A stretch of DNA of 64,000 nucleotides. It comes from Jonesiaceae bacterium BS-20 (GTDB lineage: Bacteria > Actinomycetota > Actinomycetes > Actinomycetales > Cellulomonadaceae). Under the pieces are notes generated by a model. The model was not told where the DNA came from. It saw only the letters and a list, made by a program, of their open reading frames with translations, and searched no databases. Location of the stretch: NCBI GenBank assembly GCA_039995105.1, contig CP146203.1, positions 2,914,001-2,978,000 of the forward strand. Reading direction: 5' to 3'. Of this stretch, positions 22,243-53,532 are shown one piece after another (positions within the stretch are counted from its first letter, which is position 1; each line of letters begins with the position of its first letter). The position numbers and the translations under genes were made by a program.

Positions 22243-23163
22243 CTAGCTGCGCCACAGCCCGTAAGTGTCCGCTAGATTGGCAACCTTTTGGGCGCGAGCC
22301 AGGCGCGGCAGGTAGGAGCCATCGATGATTTTGGCGCCCTTCTTTTTTGACAGCGATTTCTCATGGGCCGCGATCATTTCCTTGGCCCAGCGCAGTTCCT
22401 CTTCGCTTGGGGACAACCCCTTATTGACGTCATCAACCTGTTCAATGGTCAGGCACAGTTTCCCCGTCATACCCATGCGTTGTGTAATTTCGCACGCCGC
22501 ATAGACCTCCTCGGGGGAATCCGCCGCCCCCGGTGGGCCATCGATGGGACCCGGTAATTTGCCTACCCGCGACGCCACTACGAGCTTGCCGCGCGCGTAT
22601 GCCAAGGCCATGGGATCCTCGGTCACTCCGGTGTCCTTGCGGAAGTCATTGACCCCAAACGCAAGGCGGAAGGTACCCGGGGCGCTAGCAATTGCGGTCG
22701 CATTCTCAATTCCTAGGGCAGATTCAACAAGCGCAATGACCGGTGTCCCCGCCTGCAAGCGCATTGCCGTGAGCGTCACCTGCTCCGGCTTCTCGGTTTC
22801 TGCGAGCATGACTCCACGCAGTCCTTGCGCACCGACCAGTGCAGCAACGTCCTTTTCCCAGTGCTCGGTATCCATCTTGTTGATCCGTACCCACGCGGAC
22901 AAGCCGGAGTTCAAGGAATGCAGCACCTGATCCCTGGCTTGGTCTTTGTCTTGCTCCGCAACGGATGATTCAAGGTCCAAAATTACCGAATCTGCCTCGG
23001 ACATCAGGGCGGGCCGGAATAACTTGGGCCGAGAAGCATTGACTAGGAGCCAAGACCGCGACAAATTGGCTGGCAGTTTTGCGGCCCTCGCATTACGAAC
23101 GAGCTCGCGATTGTCCGGATCGTGGTGGTGAAGCTCTTGGCTCGCGGTCTGAGGCTGTTCCAT
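22243..23163 (-). CDS. HpcH/HpaI aldolase / citrate lyase beta-like (CitE-like) protein
   Basis: About 306 residues from the ATG at 23163, which has AAAGG 7 nt upstream; an ATG 5 codons earlier lacks one. The TIM-barrel CoA-ester lyase landmarks are present: SRSWLLVNASRPKLFRPAL, the metal-binding VILDLESSV, and IALVESALGIENA with its conserved Glu. CitE-like proteins cleave citryl-, malyl- or related CoA thioesters; lone copies are often (3S)-malyl-CoA thioesterases or of unknown role. No citD or citF genes accompany it, so classical citrate lyase is unlikely. It is transcribed divergently from the MetE-core gene. Confidence 0.85.
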   Translation of the reverse strand: MEQPQTASQELHHHDPDNRELVRNARAAKLPANLSRSWLLVNASRPKLFRPALMSEADSVILDLESSVAEQDKDQARDQVLHSLNSGLSAWVRINKMDTEHWEKDVAALVGAQGLRGVMLAETEKPEQVTLTAMRLQAGTPVIALVESALGIENATAIASAPGTFRLAFGVNDFRKDTGVTEDPMALAYARGKLVVASRVGKLPGPIDGPPGAADSPEEVYAACEITQRMGMTGKLCLTIEQVDDVNKGLSPSEEELRWAKEMIAAHEKSLSKKKGAKIIDGSYLPRLARAQKVANLADTYGLWRS

Positions 23164-23371
23164 GATGCACCTTTGCATTGTGAGAGGCTCTTTTTCCTAT
23201 CCTAGACAAATTTTAGGGGTGCGTCCCTGGGGCGGGCGGTGAGCAAGCAAACGAGACTCACTTGAGACCCTTTCGCCAAAAAATGCGGACAAGTCACCCA
23301 AAACACCCTCCCCATGATCGTTTTTGTCTCAACACTCAGACATGCAGTCCACGGTTTGGGATGGGCGATGC

Positions 23372-23514
23372 TAGATTGGTTCCAGCGCAGTGCAAGATGC
23401 GAAGCCTCGCGCCCTGTAAGAGGGCACTTCCTGCGATTCCATTATTGAATTTGGAATCGCCTTGGCATGCCTTCCAGTTGCCTCCAGCGATTCCCGTAAG
23501 TGTAAGGATTGCTG
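23372..23514 (+). promoter_or_regulatory. Promoter and structured 5' leader with alternative pairing before the MetE-core gene
   Basis: An extended -10 TGCTAGATT (TAGATT at 23372-23377) predicts a start near 23384 and a leader of about 130 nt. A small hairpin GCCCT-GTAAG-AGGGC spans 23411-23425. GCGATTCCA (23433-23441) pairs with TGGAATCGC (23452-23460), and an identical second GCGATTCC at 23487-23494 can pair with the same middle strand. The two helices exclude each other, and the second ends 9 nt before the AAGGA ribosome binding site (23504-23508). This is the layout of a regulatory RNA, although a DNA operator with three half-sites is the alternative. I do not recognise a known riboswitch class. 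The rest of 23164-23371 holds nothing I can identify. Confidence 0.5.
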
Positions 23515-24714
23515 ATGTCTTCCAACTTCATCCCGGTATCTCACGCCGGCAGTTTGCCACGTACCCCTGAACTAGCTGCGGCGAACAAGGCCGGCCGCGA
23601 GGGCGCTCCTGTTGAAAACTACAACGAGCTCCTGACCGACGCCGTTGTTGACCTGGTCAAGCGCCAGACCGACCTGGGCATTACCGTTCCGGGTGATGGT
23701 GAATTCGGCAAGGTCATGAGCGAAGCAATCGACTACGGGGCTTGGTGGAGCTACTCCTTTGGCCGCACCGATGGCCTGGCCATCGACCCGGACGTAAAGT
23801 GGCTGACCGAGCAGAACCTGTCCAGCCCGGGCAACGTAGTGCTAGATGGTTTTGGCTTCCGCCGCGACCGCGCACTATTCTCCGAGGCATACAACGACCC
23901 ATCGTCGGGGATCACCACCGGCTCACAGCCCGCGTTCCCCAAGGTTGTTGCCCCAATCTCCTACACCGGCCAGGAAGCCATCGCTTCAGACATCGCAAAC
24001 CTGAAGGCGGGCCTTGCAGCCTCGGGAGCCAAGGAAGGTTTCATCACCTCCCTATCCCCAGGCTCCGCTAGCCGCATTGGTAACGAGCACTACAAGAACG
24101 ATGAGGAACTCCTGTGGGCGTGGGCTGATGTCATGCGCGAGGAATACCTGCCCATCATCGAGGCCGGACTCATCCTGCAGATCGACGACCCTTCAATCGC
24201 GGAGAACTGGGACCAGATCAACCCGGAGCCAACGGTTGAGGACTACCTGAAGTTCACCGAGCTGCGCGTGGAGGCACTGAACTATGCTCTGCGTGGCCTG
24301 CCAGAAGAGCAGATCCGGTTCCACCTGTGCTGGGGATCCTGGCATGGCCCACACACCACTGACATTCCAATGAAGGACCTTGTGCACACCATGCTCAAGA
24401 TCAACGCCGGATCCTACTCATTCGAGGCCGGCAACGTCCGCCACGAGCACGAGTACCGCGTCTGGGACGACGTAAAGCTGGCCGACGGCAAGTTCTTGGT
24501 TCCAGGTGTTGTCTCCCACGCGACCAACGTTGTTGAGCACCCAGAGTTGGTAGCCGAGCGCATTGAGCGCTTCGCCACCCGTGTAGGCCGTGAGAACGTA
24601 GTGGCCGCAACCGACTGCGGCCTAGGCGGACGCATTCACCCACAGATCGCCTGGGCAAAGCTAGACACCCTGGCGCAGGGCGCGAAGATCGCTTCCGAGC
24701 GTCTCTGGAAGTAA
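23515..24714 (+). CDS. Cobalamin-independent methionine synthase (MetE C-terminal core) family protein
   Basis: A 399-residue single-barrel protein of the MetE core (UROD/MetE superfamily), half the size of true MetE. It starts SSNFIPVSHAGSLPRTPEL. The conserved DGEFGKV, the QIDDPSIAENWD acceptor/ligand segment, the zinc-ligand-like HLCWGSWHGPH, and ATDCGLGGRIHPQIAWAKL with its C-terminal Cys ligand are all present. Such enzymes move a methyl group from a folate or small donor to a thiol; the physiological substrate of this type is uncertain. A full-length metE exists at 44513, so this is not the only methionine synthase candidate. I chose the ATG at 23515, 6 nt after AAGGA, over a TTG two codons upstream. 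Confidence 0.88.
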   Translation: MSSNFIPVSHAGSLPRTPELAAANKAGREGAPVENYNELLTDAVVDLVKRQTDLGITVPGDGEFGKVMSEAIDYGAWWSYSFGRTDGLAIDPDVKWLTEQNLSSPGNVVLDGFGFRRDRALFSEAYNDPSSGITTGSQPAFPKVVAPISYTGQEAIASDIANLKAGLAASGAKEGFITSLSPGSASRIGNEHYKNDEELLWAWADVMREEYLPIIEAGLILQIDDPSIAENWDQINPEPTVEDYLKFTELRVEALNYALRGLPEEQIRFHLCWGSWHGPHTTDIPMKDLVHTMLKINAGSYSFEAGNVRHEHEYRVWDDVKLADGKFLVPGVVSHATNVVEHPELVAERIERFATRVGRENVVAATDCGLGGRIHPQIAWAKLDTLAQGAKIASERLWK

Positions 24715-42857: not shown

Positions 42858-43284
42858 ACCTCATCATATCTCAATTAGAACTCTTGTTCTAGTCTTTTGG
42901 GATATTTCCGGTTTATGCACAGGACCGGACTACCCATACTTTTTCCACAACAGGAGAAACGACCGACGCTCCGGCAGCCGCCGCCCGGCACACACTCGCA
43001 CACCAACGCCCCAACGCCCCAACACCCCAACACCCCAACACCCCAACACCAATTATCTCAACCCGCAAGACTGTCACGGGCAAGACATAGCAGAAAATAT
43101 GGGCCCGTTCCCCAGCCCCCAAGCAGCCGGTACTCGGAGCCGCCCGCCCAAAATCGTTGGAATTTCAACAAACATCCAAAGGCGACCCCAGCATCTACGT
43201 CTCAGTGGTCGACCGGCAGGGCGTCCGCAGATTGAGACAGTCATTGTCTCTTCTGTGCTTGCCATGCAGACTGATGCCTGTACG
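42858..43284. other. Long non-coding stretch upstream of the metF riboswitch
   Basis: No convincing gene is present; an open frame across 42706-43578 overlaps two real genes and the riboswitch and has no homology I can see. The stretch contains an 8-bp tandem repeat (43005-43050) and an inverted repeat GAGACA-GTCAT-TGTCTC (43234-43250), which may be an operator near the metF promoter. I cannot place a convincing -35/-10 pair. Confidence 0.5.
43005..43050. repeat. 8-bp tandem repeat AACRCCCC, 5.75 copies
   Basis: Two AACGCCCC units are followed by three AACACCCC units and a partial AACACC. One strand is almost pure C and A, so slippage or unusual structure is likely. It lies in the non-coding stretch before metF. 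Confidence 0.95.
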
Positions 43285-43386
43285 TCCATCCAGAGCGGTC
43301 GAGAGTCCTGGCTCATTGACACCGCAGCAACCCAATTCCGTGGCAGCCACCATGGGGGACAGGGTGCTAACGCCAGATCCGATGGA
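43285..43386 (+). promoter_or_regulatory. SAM riboswitch (SAM-I/SAM-IV clan) controlling metF
   Basis: P1 is TCCATC (43285-43290) with GATGGA (43381-43386). CAGAG and the P2 strands GCGGT/ACCGC follow, with a kink-turn-like CGAGAG...ATTGAC around GAG/CTC. The conserved GCAACCC, a P3 hairpin GTGGCAGCCAC, and GGGTGCTAACGCCAG, the counterpart of the SAM-I GGTGCCAATTCC segment, complete the core. CCTGG in the P2 loop can pair with CCAG for the pseudoknot. No SAM-I-type P4 helix is visible. The 3' strand of P1 contains the GGAG ribosome binding site (43384-43387) 9 nt before the metF ATG, so SAM binding should block translation. Confidence 0.8.
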
Positions 43387-43396
43387 GATTTAAACA

Positions 43397-44407
43397 ATGG
43401 CCTCTATAGAAGCCCCAACTTTAGTGAACGCACACTCTCGACCGACCATCTCGTTCGAGATTATGCCCCCACGCAACCCAGAGATCGCACCCAAGTTTTG
43501 GGCCACTGCGCGCCGTCTAGCGGCCGCACAACCCGACTTTATTTCCGTGACCTACGGCGCCGCCGGCACCGACCGTGACACCTCACAAGCCGTAGTCAAG
43601 CGGATCACCGAGCAAACCAGCATCCTGCCCATTGCTCACCTGACCTGCGTAGGGACCTCGCGGAGCAACGTAGCAGACACCATTGCGGAATTCCTGAGCG
43701 CCGGTGCCCGTACGTTCCTTGCACTGCGCGGCGACCCACCCAAGGACCAGCCGGATTGGCAACCGCCAGCAGACGGTGTGCACTCGTCCAAGGAACTCAT
43801 TGGATTAGTCCGCGAGGTCGAGTCCAAGCGGTGCCGGGCCAATGCGGCATCGGCATTGCGCAGCGCAGCCAAGCCACTGACCATTGCGGTTGCCACGTTC
43901 CTCGATGGAAATAGCGCCTCCGGAACCACCCGGGAACAAGAAATTGAACACCTCTACGAAAAGCAGGTGGCCGGCGCAAACTTTGCAATCACCCAGCTCT
44001 TCTTTAACGCCTCAAGTTACGTCGAATTTGTGTCAGCGGCTCGGGCCGCCGGGGTGACCATCCCAATCTTGGCGGGCATTTTGCCCACCACGGACCCAGC
44101 ACGCCTGCGCAGGGTTGCGGAGCTTACCGGGGTGGCTGCCCCGCAAGAGTTATTGGATCAGCTGGACGCAATTACTGACCCCGCTGAGCGTTACCGGACC
44201 GGACTGCAGTTTGCCATCAACCTGTCCCAAGAGGTGCTCCGGCTAGGTGCGCCGGGGTTACACATCTACACCTTTAACCAATCTGACGCAGCCATTGATC
44301 TACTCGAGGCACTCAACCTTGGACCCCAAACTACGCCGTTTGAGGAAGCATTCCCGTCCGAGTTCACCGCCCTGGAAGATCAGAGCGCACTCGCTACAAC
44401 ACGCTAG
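43397..44407 (+). CDS. metF: Methylenetetrahydrofolate reductase
   Basis: A 336-residue TIM-barrel flavoprotein that reduces 5,10-methylene-THF to 5-methyl-THF, the methyl donor for MetE. Landmarks are PTISFEIMPPRNPEIAPKFWATA (the catalytic Glu region), PDFISVTYGAAGTDRDTSQ, LTCVGTSRSNVADTIAEFLSAGARTFLALRGDPP and the late GLHIYTFNQSDA. The usual YPEGHP motif is replaced by ATFLDGNSASGTTREQE, which is a notable divergence. The gene follows the SAM riboswitch and precedes metE by 105 bp, although metE has its own promoter. Confidence 0.93.
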   Translation: MASIEAPTLVNAHSRPTISFEIMPPRNPEIAPKFWATARRLAAAQPDFISVTYGAAGTDRDTSQAVVKRITEQTSILPIAHLTCVGTSRSNVADTIAEFLSAGARTFLALRGDPPKDQPDWQPPADGVHSSKELIGLVREVESKRCRANAASALRSAAKPLTIAVATFLDGNSASGTTREQEIEHLYEKQVAGANFAITQLFFNASSYVEFVSAARAAGVTIPILAGILPTTDPARLRRVAELTGVAAPQELLDQLDAITDPAERYRTGLQFAINLSQEVLRLGAPGLHIYTFNQSDAAIDLLEALNLGPQTTPFEEAFPSEFTALEDQSALATTR

Positions 44408-44448
44408 TTCCCTTGCTTCATGCTCGCTTGCTCCAGCTTTGCGACATC

Positions 44449-44478
44449 TTGACATTGTGGCACCACAGTCTTTATAAA
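44449..44478 (+). promoter_or_regulatory. metE promoter with palindrome in the spacer
   Basis: TTGACA (44449-44454) and TATAAA (44473-44478) are separated by 18 bp, a near-consensus promoter 34 bp before the metE start. The spacer holds the palindrome TGTGG-CA-CCACA (44456-44467), a likely operator. No riboswitch is visible in this 105-bp gap. Confidence 0.8.
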
Positions 44479-44512
44479 AACCCATCTTTGCTATATCTAT
44501 TTAAGGAAAATC

Positions 44513-46873
44513 ATGTCCCTCACCTCCACCCCGTCTGCCCAAAATCAGGGCTCTGCCTTCCCAACCGCTTCGGTTCTGGGATACCCCCGCATTGGCCCAA
44601 ACCGCGAGTTGAAGCGCGCGGTTGAGGCTTTCTGGGCCGGCAAGACCGACGTAGACGCCCTTGAGGAGACCGCACGCGGCCTGCGTTCGCAGACCCGAGC
44701 CCGCCTTGCTGAGCTGGGCTTGGGCAAGCAGGACGCTTCCATTCCAGAGACGTTTAGCTTCTACGACCAGGTTCTCGATGCCTCGGTTGCGTTTGGTGTT
44801 CTGCCCACGCGCTTTGAGCGGTTGCGTGGCGAGGACGGGTCGATTGACCTGGCCGGTTACTTCACCGTTGCTCGCGGCCAGGGCGATGACCTGCCGCTTG
44901 AGATGACCAAGTGGTTTGACACCAACTACCACTACCTCGTTCCTGAGTTGGGCCCGGACACCGAGTTCTCCTTGGCCGGCAACCGCTACGTGGAGCAGTT
45001 CCTTGAGGCTAAGGAAGAGGGCTTTGTAACCCGCCCGGTTCTGCTTGGCCCGGTAACGTACTTGGCGCTGTCCAAGCCTGCAGTTGGAGTCGCCGCTGAT
45101 TTCAACCCACTTGACCTTCTGCCTAAGCTGTTGCCGGTCTACGCAGAACTTCTTGACCGTCTTGCTGCGGCCGGTGCCCCATGGGTGCAGATTGATGAGC
45201 CTGCGGTTGTTTCCGACAACCTTGGACTGTCTTCCGAGCAGATTAGTGCCGCAATCACTGCGGCCTACGGCGTGCTCACCACCGAGGGCGCAAACCGCCC
45301 ACAGATCCTGATCACCACTCCATACGGTGACGTAGGAACACTGCTGCCAACCCTTGCGGCCCTTGAGGTTGAAGCGCTAGCCCTAGACCTGGTGCTGGGA
45401 ACCGTAACCGAGTTCGACGCAGCGACCAAGGCAAATCTTGCGGACAAGACGCTGGTTGCCGGTCTCGTTGATGGCCACAACATCTGGCGCACCGACCTGG
45501 GCGCCCAGCTCGAGATTCTCGAGTCACTCGAGTTCTCCGGTGTTGGCTCGGTTGCCGTAACCACCTCAACATCGCTTCAGCACATTCCATACACCCTTGC
45601 CGGCGAGGAGCACCTGGGTGAGGAACTCATCAGCTGGTTGGCATTTGCCGAGGAGAAGACGCAGGAAGTCGTCACCCTAGCGACCGGGATCGCTGATGGC
45701 CGCGAGGCCATTCACACCGAGCTGTTGGAGTCAGCCGATTCCATTGCGAGCCGCACCAACGCGGCCGGCGTGAACATCAAGGAAATCCGCGAGCGCACCG
45801 CAGCGTTGCAGCCCTCAGACTTTGACCGTGTTGACGCGCAGATCCGCAAGGAAGCTCAGGCCGCCCGCCTGAACCTGCCGGACCTGCCAACCACGACAAT
45901 CGGTTCCTTCCCACAAACCCTTGAGATCCGCAAGGCTCGCGCCGCCCACGCTCGCGGCGAGCTCAGCTTGGCCGACTACGAAGAAGCCATGAAGGCGGAG
46001 ATTGCCCAGGCCATCAAGCTGCAAGAAGAGATTGGTCTGGACGTTCTGGTGCACGGTGAGGCCGAGCGCAACGACATGGTCCAGTACTTCGCTGAGCTTC
46101 TTGACGGGTTCTCAGTCACCAAGAACGGTTGGGTTCAGTCCTACGGTTCACGTTGCACCCGCCCCTCAATCCTGTGGGGTGACGTCTCCCGTCCAGCCCC
46201 AATGACCGTGCGTTGGACCCAGTACGCCCAGTCGCTGTCTGACCTGCCGGTCAAGGGCATGCTGACCGGTCCGGTCACCATCATGGCCTGGTCGTTTGTG
46301 CGTGATGACATTTCCCTGCGCGAGACCGCTAACCAGATCGGTTTGGCTCTGCGCGACGAGGTCACTGACCTTGAGGCCGCCGGGATCGCAGCCATTCAGG
46401 TTGATGAGCCAGCACTGCGCGAGCTGTTGCCGCTGCGCAAGGTGGACCACGCCGACTACCTGGACTGGTCGGTGAACTCCTTCCGTTTGTCCACGGCTGG
46501 GGTTCGTCCGGACACCCAGATCCACACACACCTGTGCTACTCCGAGTTCGGTGACGTCATTGGCGCTATCGACGGCCTGAACGCCGACGTTACATCCATT
46601 GAGGCTGCCCGGTCCCGCATGGAGGTTCTGCCAGAGCTTGCCGATGCCGGCTTTGCTCGCGGTGTTGGCCCCGGCGTGTATGACATTCACTCCCCACGGG
46701 TTCCGTCCCAGGAAGAGATCACGGAACTTCTTGAACTTGCAGTGAAGTCAGTTGACCCGGACCTGCTGTGGGTTAACCCGGACTGCGGCTTGAAGACCCG
46801 CGGTTATGCGGAGACCACCGCTTCCCTGAAGAACCTAGTTGGTGCAGCACTTGCAGTGCGCGCTCAGGTCTGA
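44513..46873 (+). CDS. metE: Cobalamin-independent methionine synthase
   Basis: A full-length 786-residue MetE. The N-terminal barrel starts [24 protein letters not shown]. The C-terminal catalytic barrel includes [55 protein letters not shown], and the zinc ligands in [12 protein letters not shown] and [12 protein letters not shown]. It transfers the methyl group of 5-methyl-THF (polyglutamate) to homocysteine. AAGGA lies 6 nt before the ATG. It is partnered with metF upstream and ends at a strong terminator. Confidence 0.97.
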
Positions 46874-51594: not shown

Positions 51595-53382
51595 TCAGAG
51601 CCGAGTGTCCGGTTCATTGGAACCATCTACTTCTTTGGAGTCTTCCGTCTCTTCCAAACCAGTAACATTGTCCGATTCACTCGGCAGAGTTTCTCTCGAC
51701 TGTGAGACTCCATCTCGAAGTGACTGTGCCACAGATTCTGGGAGCCGAACTGACCTCGCCAACTTCTCACTAAGTTCAGCCCACTGCCCCAGCCCTTCCC
51801 GTATTGTTTCAGTTACCTTTAAGGTCTGCCCAGTCAGGATCACGGACGAACTCTTGCCAACTATTTCAAATGCTTCACGTAGATCACTAGACATAATGAG
51901 ATTGGCATAGTGGGCCCGTATAGAATCTGAAATACGGAGAGATTCTGCTAGTTGGATTCGCACAGCTTCAGATGCCATGGCTGCTGAGACTGATAGACGC
52001 ATTGCCCCGGTCAGATTGGCATGTGAAATTGCCTTCTGCACGCTAGCCAAACTGGCGCTTAACTGCCGCAAGTGACTGCTGGTAACTTGAAGTTGGATTT
52101 CTCTCCACGTGGGATCAGAAACCGTTTGGTAGGCGATTCGCTGACCCAAGTCTTCAAGTTCATCAATGAGTAATCCTGCACACCACACCTGACGTCTCTT
52201 ACGGTTTGTGAGCGGGCGAAGCACTCCCGCCTGGGCAAGCTTTTCAATTCCCGAGTAAATAGCTGATTCTGAACCACCAATGGAGTCCTCGATTTCCTCG
52301 GACGTAAAGAAGGGCACTGCGAGTAGTTGGCCAAGGATCTTGCTAGCTGCACTTCCGACTCTGGGTGCCCTACCCATTTCTTCGCGATACATTGCTTCCC
52401 ACTGCGCAGGCATTTCAGCAAGCCTTGTTGCCGTTAGTACGGACTCGCGCGCCGATGTCTGCGATGCGTGAGCAAATGCTCGAACGATAGGCCCAGCGTC
52501 ACCTTCTCTGTATGCGGACAAGACTTCGAAGTACGCCTCTCGCTTCGCCACTAGGGCAGACGCCAAAGGGACAACCACCTGCTCAGTCACCCCACGTCGC
52601 CTCAGAATCGCATTAATGAGTGCTCGCCCAATGCGCCCATTTCCATCGGTGAATGGGTGAATCGACTCAAATTGCGCGTGAGCAACTGCGGCCTGAACCA
52701 GTACCGGTACATCATCTCTGTTGACGAAGATCAACAGATCTTCCAAGTACCCTTGGACCGTATCTGCGGGTGGTGGCACATACAGAGCATTTCTTGGAGC
52801 AAAATCTGATCCGCCAATCCAGTTCTGCATATCCCGCAGACGGCCAGCGTATCGACTCTCATGCGGATCATCAGCCATCAGAATCCGGTGCGCGGCTAAG
52901 ACGTTTTCCAACAAGACATCCCCGTGGTCATTAACTGACAAAATCAGCGAATCAAGGGCATTTGCTGAAGCAACCATTGAAGTAGCCGATGAGTTGGCTT
53001 TGACGCCATGAGTCGCCTTAGCAAAGTCTTCCATGGTGGCCTCGACGTTCTCAATCTTCGACGATGCCACTGATTCTGCCCGGAGCAATAGGACCGACAG
53101 CACCCCCAAGGTTTGTCCATGCCCAGAATCCAGCCGCACAATCGAGGCAATTGCCCTGTCTGCTTGAGCACCAATCTCCGGCGGGAGGACCGGTTCAAAA
53201 TCACTAATTTTCGGTGGAAGACTAACCGTAACCTGGCGCATCATTCGATCATCGCGGTTGCCCCCTTTGCCCGTCTTCCGCCAGTCGACGACCTTTTCAC
53301 CATGCGCCTGGATGGCAACACGAAAACGATCATCAACAACTTCTGGGCCTGACTGCGACTCGTCCATCTTCAATCCATTCAT
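51595..53382 (-). CDS. Large class II Fic AMP-transferase with winged-helix and C-terminal extension
   Basis: 595 residues. The active-site motif is HPFTDGNGRIGR (242-253). The inhibitory helix motif SSKIEN (107-112, S/T-x-x-x-E-N) lies before the Fic core, which makes this a self-inhibited class II Fic. A winged-helix segment (about 345-405, FFTSEEIEDSIGGSESAIYSGIEKLAQAG) follows, as in DNA-binding Fic proteins. The last 185 residues are an extra helical, Ser/Ala-rich extension ending in an acidic tail; ordinary Fic proteins of this type end near 370-400. Fic enzymes transfer AMP from ATP to protein Ser/Thr/Tyr. The ATG at 53382 sits 3 nt from an inverted-repeat array, suggesting that the protein controls its own gene. 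MDESQSG at 53367 is an alternative start. Confidence 0.9.
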   Translation of the reverse strand: MNGLKMDESQSGPEVVDDRFRVAIQAHGEKVVDWRKTGKGGNRDDRMMRQVTVSLPPKISDFEPVLPPEIGAQADRAIASIVRLDSGHGQTLGVLSVLLLRAESVASSKIENVEATMEDFAKATHGVKANSSATSMVASANALDSLILSVNDHGDVLLENVLAAHRILMADDPHESRYAGRLRDMQNWIGGSDFAPRNALYVPPPADTVQGYLEDLLIFVNRDDVPVLVQAAVAHAQFESIHPFTDGNGRIGRALINAILRRRGVTEQVVVPLASALVAKREAYFEVLSAYREGDAGPIVRAFAHASQTSARESVLTATRLAEMPAQWEAMYREEMGRAPRVGSAASKILGQLLAVPFFTSEEIEDSIGGSESAIYSGIEKLAQAGVLRPLTNRKRRQVWCAGLLIDELEDLGQRIAYQTVSDPTWREIQLQVTSSHLRQLSASLASVQKAISHANLTGAMRLSVSAAMASEAVRIQLAESLRISDSIRAHYANLIMSSDLREAFEIVGKSSSVILTGQTLKVTETIREGLGQWAELSEKLARSVRLPESVAQSLRDGVSQSRETLPSESDNVTGLEETEDSKEVDGSNEPDTRL

Positions 53383-53385
53383 CTC

Positions 53386-53460
53386 TAACCCGGAATAACG
53401 ACTCCGTTATTCCGGGTTAATATTGTTAACCCGGAATAAAGTCTACCTAATTCCGAGTTA
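53386..53460 (-). promoter_or_regulatory. Inverted-repeat operator array in the fic promoter
   Basis: TAACCCGGAATAACG (53386-53400) faces CGTTATTCCGGGTTA (53405-53419), a perfect 15-bp inverted repeat. The latter also faces TTAACCCGGAATAA (53426-53439) across a 5-bp A/T spacer, and a degenerate fourth half-site AATTCCGAGTTA lies at 53449-53460. The first repeat ends 3 nt before the fic ATG, so it could act as DNA operator and as an RNA hairpin covering the ribosome binding site. A TATTAA -10 candidate lies between the middle half-sites. Confidence 0.7.
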
Positions 53461-53532
53461 CTTACGGGCTCCAGGACGGCAGGCATTAGACCAAAGTGCT
53501 GTGGCATCGAGAATCTGAAACCATCTGTAGAC

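Follow-up and report, generated by a model that had tools for sequence, protein, structure and literature searches.

A candidate RNA switch, predicted to form a three-way junction, upstream of actinobacterial core methionine synthase genes

Several riboswitch classes are known to serve the methionine cycle. The SAM-I (RF00162) and SAM-IV (RF00634) riboswitches are leader RNAs of 108-116 model positions in which a closing helix feeds an expression platform, and the SAH riboswitch (Wang et al. 2008, cited in PMC9971707) appears to be an aptamer that activates recycling genes. Among the enzymes of the cycle, MesX-MesD is a folate-independent methionine synthase in which MesD needs MesX and oxygen, but not methyl-folate or cobalamin (PMC7857596); the main text of that paper does not contain the word riboswitch, and the methyl donor was not identified in the parts of it that we consulted. 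Here we describe a leader RNA that stands before MetE-core genes, a distant MetE-like paralog or mesX-mesD and that matches no Rfam family. The leader lies in a 64,000-nucleotide stretch of DNA from Jonesiaceae bacterium BS-20 (contig CP146203.1), referred to below as the window, and precedes a 399-codon MetE-core gene. It shares its intergenic region with a divergent HpcH/HpaI aldolase/CitE-like gene (22243-23178, minus strand). The same window contains a SAM-I riboswitch (43283-43388, 50.9 bits) which precedes a methylenetetrahydrofolate reductase (238.9 bits to TIGR00676, below its cut-off of 293.7) and a full-length MetE (1043 bits to PRK05222; both genes within 43397-46873). This genome thus has an ordinary folate-dependent methionine synthase besides the MetE-core gene.

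The original prediction for this leader was that a middle strand can pair with either of two identical flanking strands, that a separate small hairpin precedes them, and that the whole is a candidate new cis-regulatory RNA. The repeats are exact: arms 23433-23441/23452-23460 (9 nt) and 23453-23460/23487-23494 (8 nt) are each 100% complementary. An 8-mer present twice with its reverse complement between the copies arises in only 1 of 20,000 dinucleotide shuffles of the 131-nt leader. When the window was scanned in 131-nt stretches (step 10), 24 of 6,387 stretches held such a triple, at two places (23371-23431 and 53311-53531), the second of which contains dense inverted repeats around TATTCCGGGTTAA/TTAACCCGGAATA (53391-53460) that are possibly an operator. 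The leader with its first codons (23384-23530) folds with z = -2.34, with 7 of 200 shuffles folding as well. However, the repeats are only the switching half of the leader. The conserved, presumably sensing, part is upstream of and overlaps strand 1, it includes the small hairpin (P3 below), and the element is a family rather than a one-off. It had also not been noted that strand 3 pairs with the ribosome-binding site (CAGCGATTC, 23485-23493, with GGATTGCTG, 23506-23514). The features of the locus are as follows.

23372..23377 (+), TAGATT, putative -10 hexamer, which would place the transcript start near 23384, just before P1
23385..23436 (+), candidate aptamer, a three-way junction of ~52 nt
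23386..23390 (+), P1 5' strand CGCAG, pairing with 23431-23435
23399..23410 (+), P2 hairpin GCGA-AGCC-UCGC, the most conserved block
23411..23425 (+), P3 hairpin GCCCU-GUAAG-AGGGC
23431..23435 (+), P1 3' strand CUGCG, overlapping strand 1
23433..23441 (+), strand 1, GCGAUUCCA, pairing with the P1 5' strand (first 3 nt) or with strand 2
23452..23460 (+), strand 2, UGGAAUCGC, pairing with strand 1 or strand 3
23485..23494 (+), strand 3, CAGCGAUUCC, pairing with strand 2 or with the ribosome-binding site
23504..23508 (+), Shine-Dalgarno AAGGA; strand 4, GGAUUGCUG, is 23506-23514
23515..24714 (+), MetE-core gene (399 codons, likely start ATG 23515), the presumed controlled gene

The product of the MetE-core gene matches Pfam Meth_synt_2 (34.3 bits against a cut-off of 21) and has the PDB relative 3rpd_A, 'Methionine synthase (B12-independent)' (E 1.3e-9). 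An HxC and C pattern, probably that of the zinc ligands, was seen by eye.

We read up to 170 nt upstream of 90 loci, comprising the window's own, 9 from a first search and the best 80 of 379 relatives from a second. A subset of these shares a block with the window that begins before the predicted switching helices: CGCAG ... GCGA(A/G)GCCUCGC ... hairpin ... CUGCG. From 13 sequences, the window's included, we built a covariance model, R1, which found 17 distinct leaders at E <= 0.1 when 90 of 100 sources were searched (18 rows, the window being counted twice as locus L001; L-numbers denote individual loci and their leaders). The sources left out were L011-L019 and L095, the last being a record labelled Vibrio cholerae strain 35D which carries an actinobacterial-type MetE-core gene with a leader that looks like SAM-I, and is probably contamination or a wrong label. 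The match of the window leader to R1 (59.1 bits), and to the later model R2 (58.1 bits), is by construction since it is a training row. R1 also found the element in 15 of 249 genomes in the family of a Clavibacter genome and in 2 of 297 in an order-wide draw, and detected a second copy (L112) in a Naasia genome. The search that gave this second copy listed 24 places at E <= 1, of which 17 at E <= 0.0012 lie before target genes, L116 (E 0.35) is the leader of L098, and the other 6 have E 0.077-0.65, one of them (L118) holding the P2 block. L098 (27 bits) was dropped from one of the alignments (A4).

Model R2, built from 24 sequences, found the element in 42 of 398 genomes of the Clavibacter family (43 places, E <= 0.01), in 4 of 199 and 5 of 221 genomes in two overlapping draws from the window's own family, and in 1 of 150 in the order of a Nakamurella genome, that genome itself. 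In a phylum-wide draw of 396 it found only the window and one match (E 0.0042) inside a coding frame that reads like proA, taken as false. A pattern scan of IMG/VR had no match. The window's genome is grouped in one family with Sanguibacter, as a genome in that family has the same contig coordinates as the genome holding the Sanguibacter suarezii locus L020. The element therefore looks patchy and restricted to some actinobacterial families, although only 13-36 candidates per genome were scored in the large runs and the frequencies are thus lower bounds.

All 43 places in the Clavibacter family, 25 of them outside the training set of R2, lie directly upstream, on the same strand, of one of three kinds of gene. 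Over 52 loci, which may contain the same species twice under two collections, the tally is 37 MetE-core, 9 mesX and 6 of a MetE-like paralog of 351-363 aa, one of these (L126) with a broken frame, with the element 24-176 nt from the start codon. These assignments were made by short peptide patterns and reading of the translations, with a few confirmed by profile HMMs: the window and L157 (Meth_synt_2), and L163, where mesX (PF08908, 496.6 bits) is followed by an adjacent mesD (PRK09121 'methionine synthase', 664.5 bits). In four mesX leaders (L150, L155, L160 and L161) a short upstream frame starting MVTI and ending CR-stop, read by eye, overlaps the mesX start (CGATGACG), suggesting translational coupling. 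The paralog has no Pfam or NCBIfam match, but carries HLC and ECG motifs that resemble the likely zinc ligands of MetE, and has a weak profile similarity to the MetE-core alignment (hhalign probability 37%, E 3.5e-4). The targets therefore are, or distantly resemble, core methionine synthases, or the partner that MesD needs. For the MetE-core protein of the window and the paralog we found no assigned reaction in the libraries searched.

The predicted fold is a compact three-way junction comprising P1, with a one-nucleotide bulge and further inner pairs, P2, and P3 of variable length. The minimum free energy fold of the window's segment alone gives all three helices, and individual folding of the aptamers, without any alignment, gives a three-way junction in 31 of 33 leaders as read from the dot-brackets (mean z -1.79, 27 of 33 below -1). 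L132 and L157 show P3 in another register, L134 folds otherwise, and L149 lacks P3. P2 reads GCGA(A/G)GCCUCGC in most of 47 rows, with ACGA.. in 4 and ..CCUUGC in 4, but this block was also the search string that first gathered the seed set, and its conservation in the seed rows is partly by selection. On the model-fitted alignment of 47 of the 52 leaders (L074, L090, L125, L139 and L142 were not included) 91.5% of cells pair and 7 of 15 pairs change on both sides (37 cells), including all 4 basal P3 pairs. None of 500 shuffles reaches this, and sliding the partners lowers pairing to 23-50%. Because such alignments lean towards the model, we tested P3 without alignment by comparing the bases after the P2 block with those before P1, using own or permuted partners. 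The mean helix was 5.15 against 3.66, with 0 of 20,000 permutations over 33 leaders reaching the observed value. The 33 leaders used in this test and in the individual folding are 22 dereplicated ones plus 11 related ones, the two sets differing by one leader, and neither the shuffles nor the permutations correct for relatedness. By contrast, RNAalifold on a sequence-only MAFFT alignment recovers only P2, with no covariation; that alignment shifts P1 in some rows (L151, L156, L163).

The P1 3' strand is the 5' part of strand 1, with P1 and helix 1:2 sharing 23433-23435. A downstream strand complementary to strand 1 is longer than in shuffles for the 22 dereplicated leaders as a group (Fisher p = 5.6e-5), but individually in only 7 of 22, and in 8 of 11 further, not independent, leaders. 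The 15 leaders in which the helix is not significant include L004, L032, L132, L148 and L162, which share a short P3. Strand 2 is often GGAGUCGC, pairing with GCGAUUCC through a U-G pair. In L112 and L145 all four strands recur with changed letters (strand 3 GCCGACUCC, strand 4 GGAGUCGA), whilst in L131, L143, L144 and L149 strand 1 can pair with the ribosome-binding site itself (GGAGUCGC before AUG).

These features suggest a two-state arrangement. In one state P1 forms, strand 2 pairs with strand 3, and strand 4 is released from strand 3; in the other P1 opens, strand 1 pairs with strand 2, strand 3 pairs with strand 4, and the ribosome-binding site is closed. For a window transcript from 23384 to the AUG, P1 with 2:3 is -43.3, P1 with 3:4 -40.5, and 1:2 with 3:4 -44.8 kcal/mol. 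With 10 more upstream bases the values are -43.6, -42.6 and -47.3, so that P1 with 2:3 lies 3.7 rather than 1.5 kcal/mol above 1:2 with 3:4. Up to 23500, before the ribosome site has been made, P1 with 2:3 is the optimum (-39.2 against -37.9). A ligand that stabilizes the junction would favor the first state and so switch the gene ON. However, this direction is inferred from topology only. In the best P1+2:3 fold of the window AAGGA is not open, as all five bases pair with bases in 23438-23443, although freeing it costs 3.5 kcal/mol there against 5.2 from 1:2+3:4. Ensemble calculations of ribosome-site accessibility give no common direction. A first measure over the 22 dereplicated leaders has mean +0.012 against +0.010 in shuffles (7 up and 6 down) and goes the other way in the window (-0.14), and a second gives 0.000 against +0.019 (5 up and 2 down), and +0.066 against +0.055 in 11 further leaders.

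A transcript beginning at P1 would fit the positions of putative promoter elements. A (C/T)ANNNT hexamer lies 6-18 nt before the aptamer in 11 of the 22 leaders, against 1 and 2 of 22 in two control stretches further upstream, although an E. coli-type promoter scan did not report the window's hexamer and the start site itself is inference. No transcription terminator was found at 23200-23560.

Taken together, these data support the original prediction of a new cis-regulatory RNA of methyl-transfer metabolism. We consider it more likely than not that the leader 23384-23514 belongs to an apparently undescribed riboswitch family that acts on translation in response to a methionine-cycle metabolite. 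That a small molecule is bound, and which one, is inferred: SAH or homocysteine would fit ON logic, SAM or methionine OFF logic. No description of the motif was found in full-text literature searches, which did not cover subscription journals or preprints, or in the parts consulted of PMC7857596, PMC9971707, PMC11109978, PMC8632094 and PMC2864571.

ALTERNATIVES. The alternative that survives best, though we think it unlikely, is that the RNA structure is real but is bound by a protein, or acts as a temperature- or ribosome-sensing leader. Much of the conservation sits in the one short hairpin P2, the element is small, and some leaders have very short linkers to the start codon (24-27 nt in L134, L152 and L157) with a 1:2 helix of no more than 0-4 nt. 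Against this, a three-way junction with conserved loop bases, at a position that SAM-I and SAM-IV riboswitches occupy in relatives, would be typical of aptamers. It is improbable that the element is a far-diverged member of a known SAM or SAH class, despite its sharing position and target with SAM-I and SAM-IV in some relatives. There is no Rfam match at the gathering score in the window leader or at the motif in 12 motif loci, whereas SAM-I and SAM-IV are found in other loci in the same kind of search. Even a search of 23178-23600 at E <= 5 against the Rfam 15 families, among them SAH, SAM-II, SAM-III, SAM-VI, SAM/SAH, cobalamin, THF and T-box, gave only HTH-XRE on the minus strand (19.9 bits against a cut-off of 49.8), and at E <= 1 in 8 motif loci the only match was a miRNA model away from the leader. 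A protein-bound DNA operator (palindrome 23433-23460 plus a third half-site) is similarly doubtful. The arms are perfect over 9 nt with 10 nt between them, like a two-turn operator, but the U-G pair between GGAGUCGC and GCGAUUCC in several relatives is good in RNA and breaks the DNA palindrome, P1 and P3 covary, the repeats lie downstream of the putative -10 hexamers, and the corresponding helix is only 0-4 nt in L134, L152 and L157. Least likely is ribosome-mediated attenuation through a leader peptide, because although the four-strand layout may resemble amino-acid attenuators, the window has candidate starts (GTG 23390, a 9-codon frame; ATG 23397) and 23 of 34 start codons counted in 31 leaders share one frame relative to P2, 21 of 52 leaders have no ATG/GTG/TTG between 3 nt before the aptamer and P2, and the distances P1 to P2 (30, 7 and 15 loci with remainder 0, 1 and 2 modulo 3) and P2 to aptamer end (13, 24 and 15) keep no frame.

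The element ties together three enzyme groups, MetE-core, the MetE-like paralog and MesX-MesD, the last being an enzyme pair that is one of its target units. A speculative and rather unlikely possibility is that it represents the first riboswitch class for homocysteine, or for the still unknown methyl donor of core (folate-independent) methionine synthases, turning these enzymes on when their substrate accumulates. Of the described RNAs, SAM-VI, apparently a compact actinobacterial junction located before metK, and SAM-III, which seems to control translation through the ribosome-binding site, show no match at the motif at E <= 1 in 8 motif loci. The SAH riboswitch likewise gives no match in the window leader or these loci, and the targets found here are core methionine synthases and their partner, but the favored ON logic is alike. 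SAM-I and SAM-IV have other conserved cores, yet in 12 of 40 homologous loci scanned a SAM-I (7) or SAM-IV (5) riboswitch occupies the same position before the same MetE-core gene, and a different 12 of the 40 carry the new element, with none having both at Rfam's gathering cut-off. Half of these loci were picked partly because they looked SAM-like, so that these numbers are not frequencies, and in L028 (3827-3939), L049 (2042-2170) and L059 (2006-2131) SAM-IV riboswitches lie beside, not before, the MetE-core gene, presumably serving neighboring genes. The new element thus stands where some relatives have SAM riboswitches and, if it is an ON switch, SAH or homocysteine fits better than SAM.
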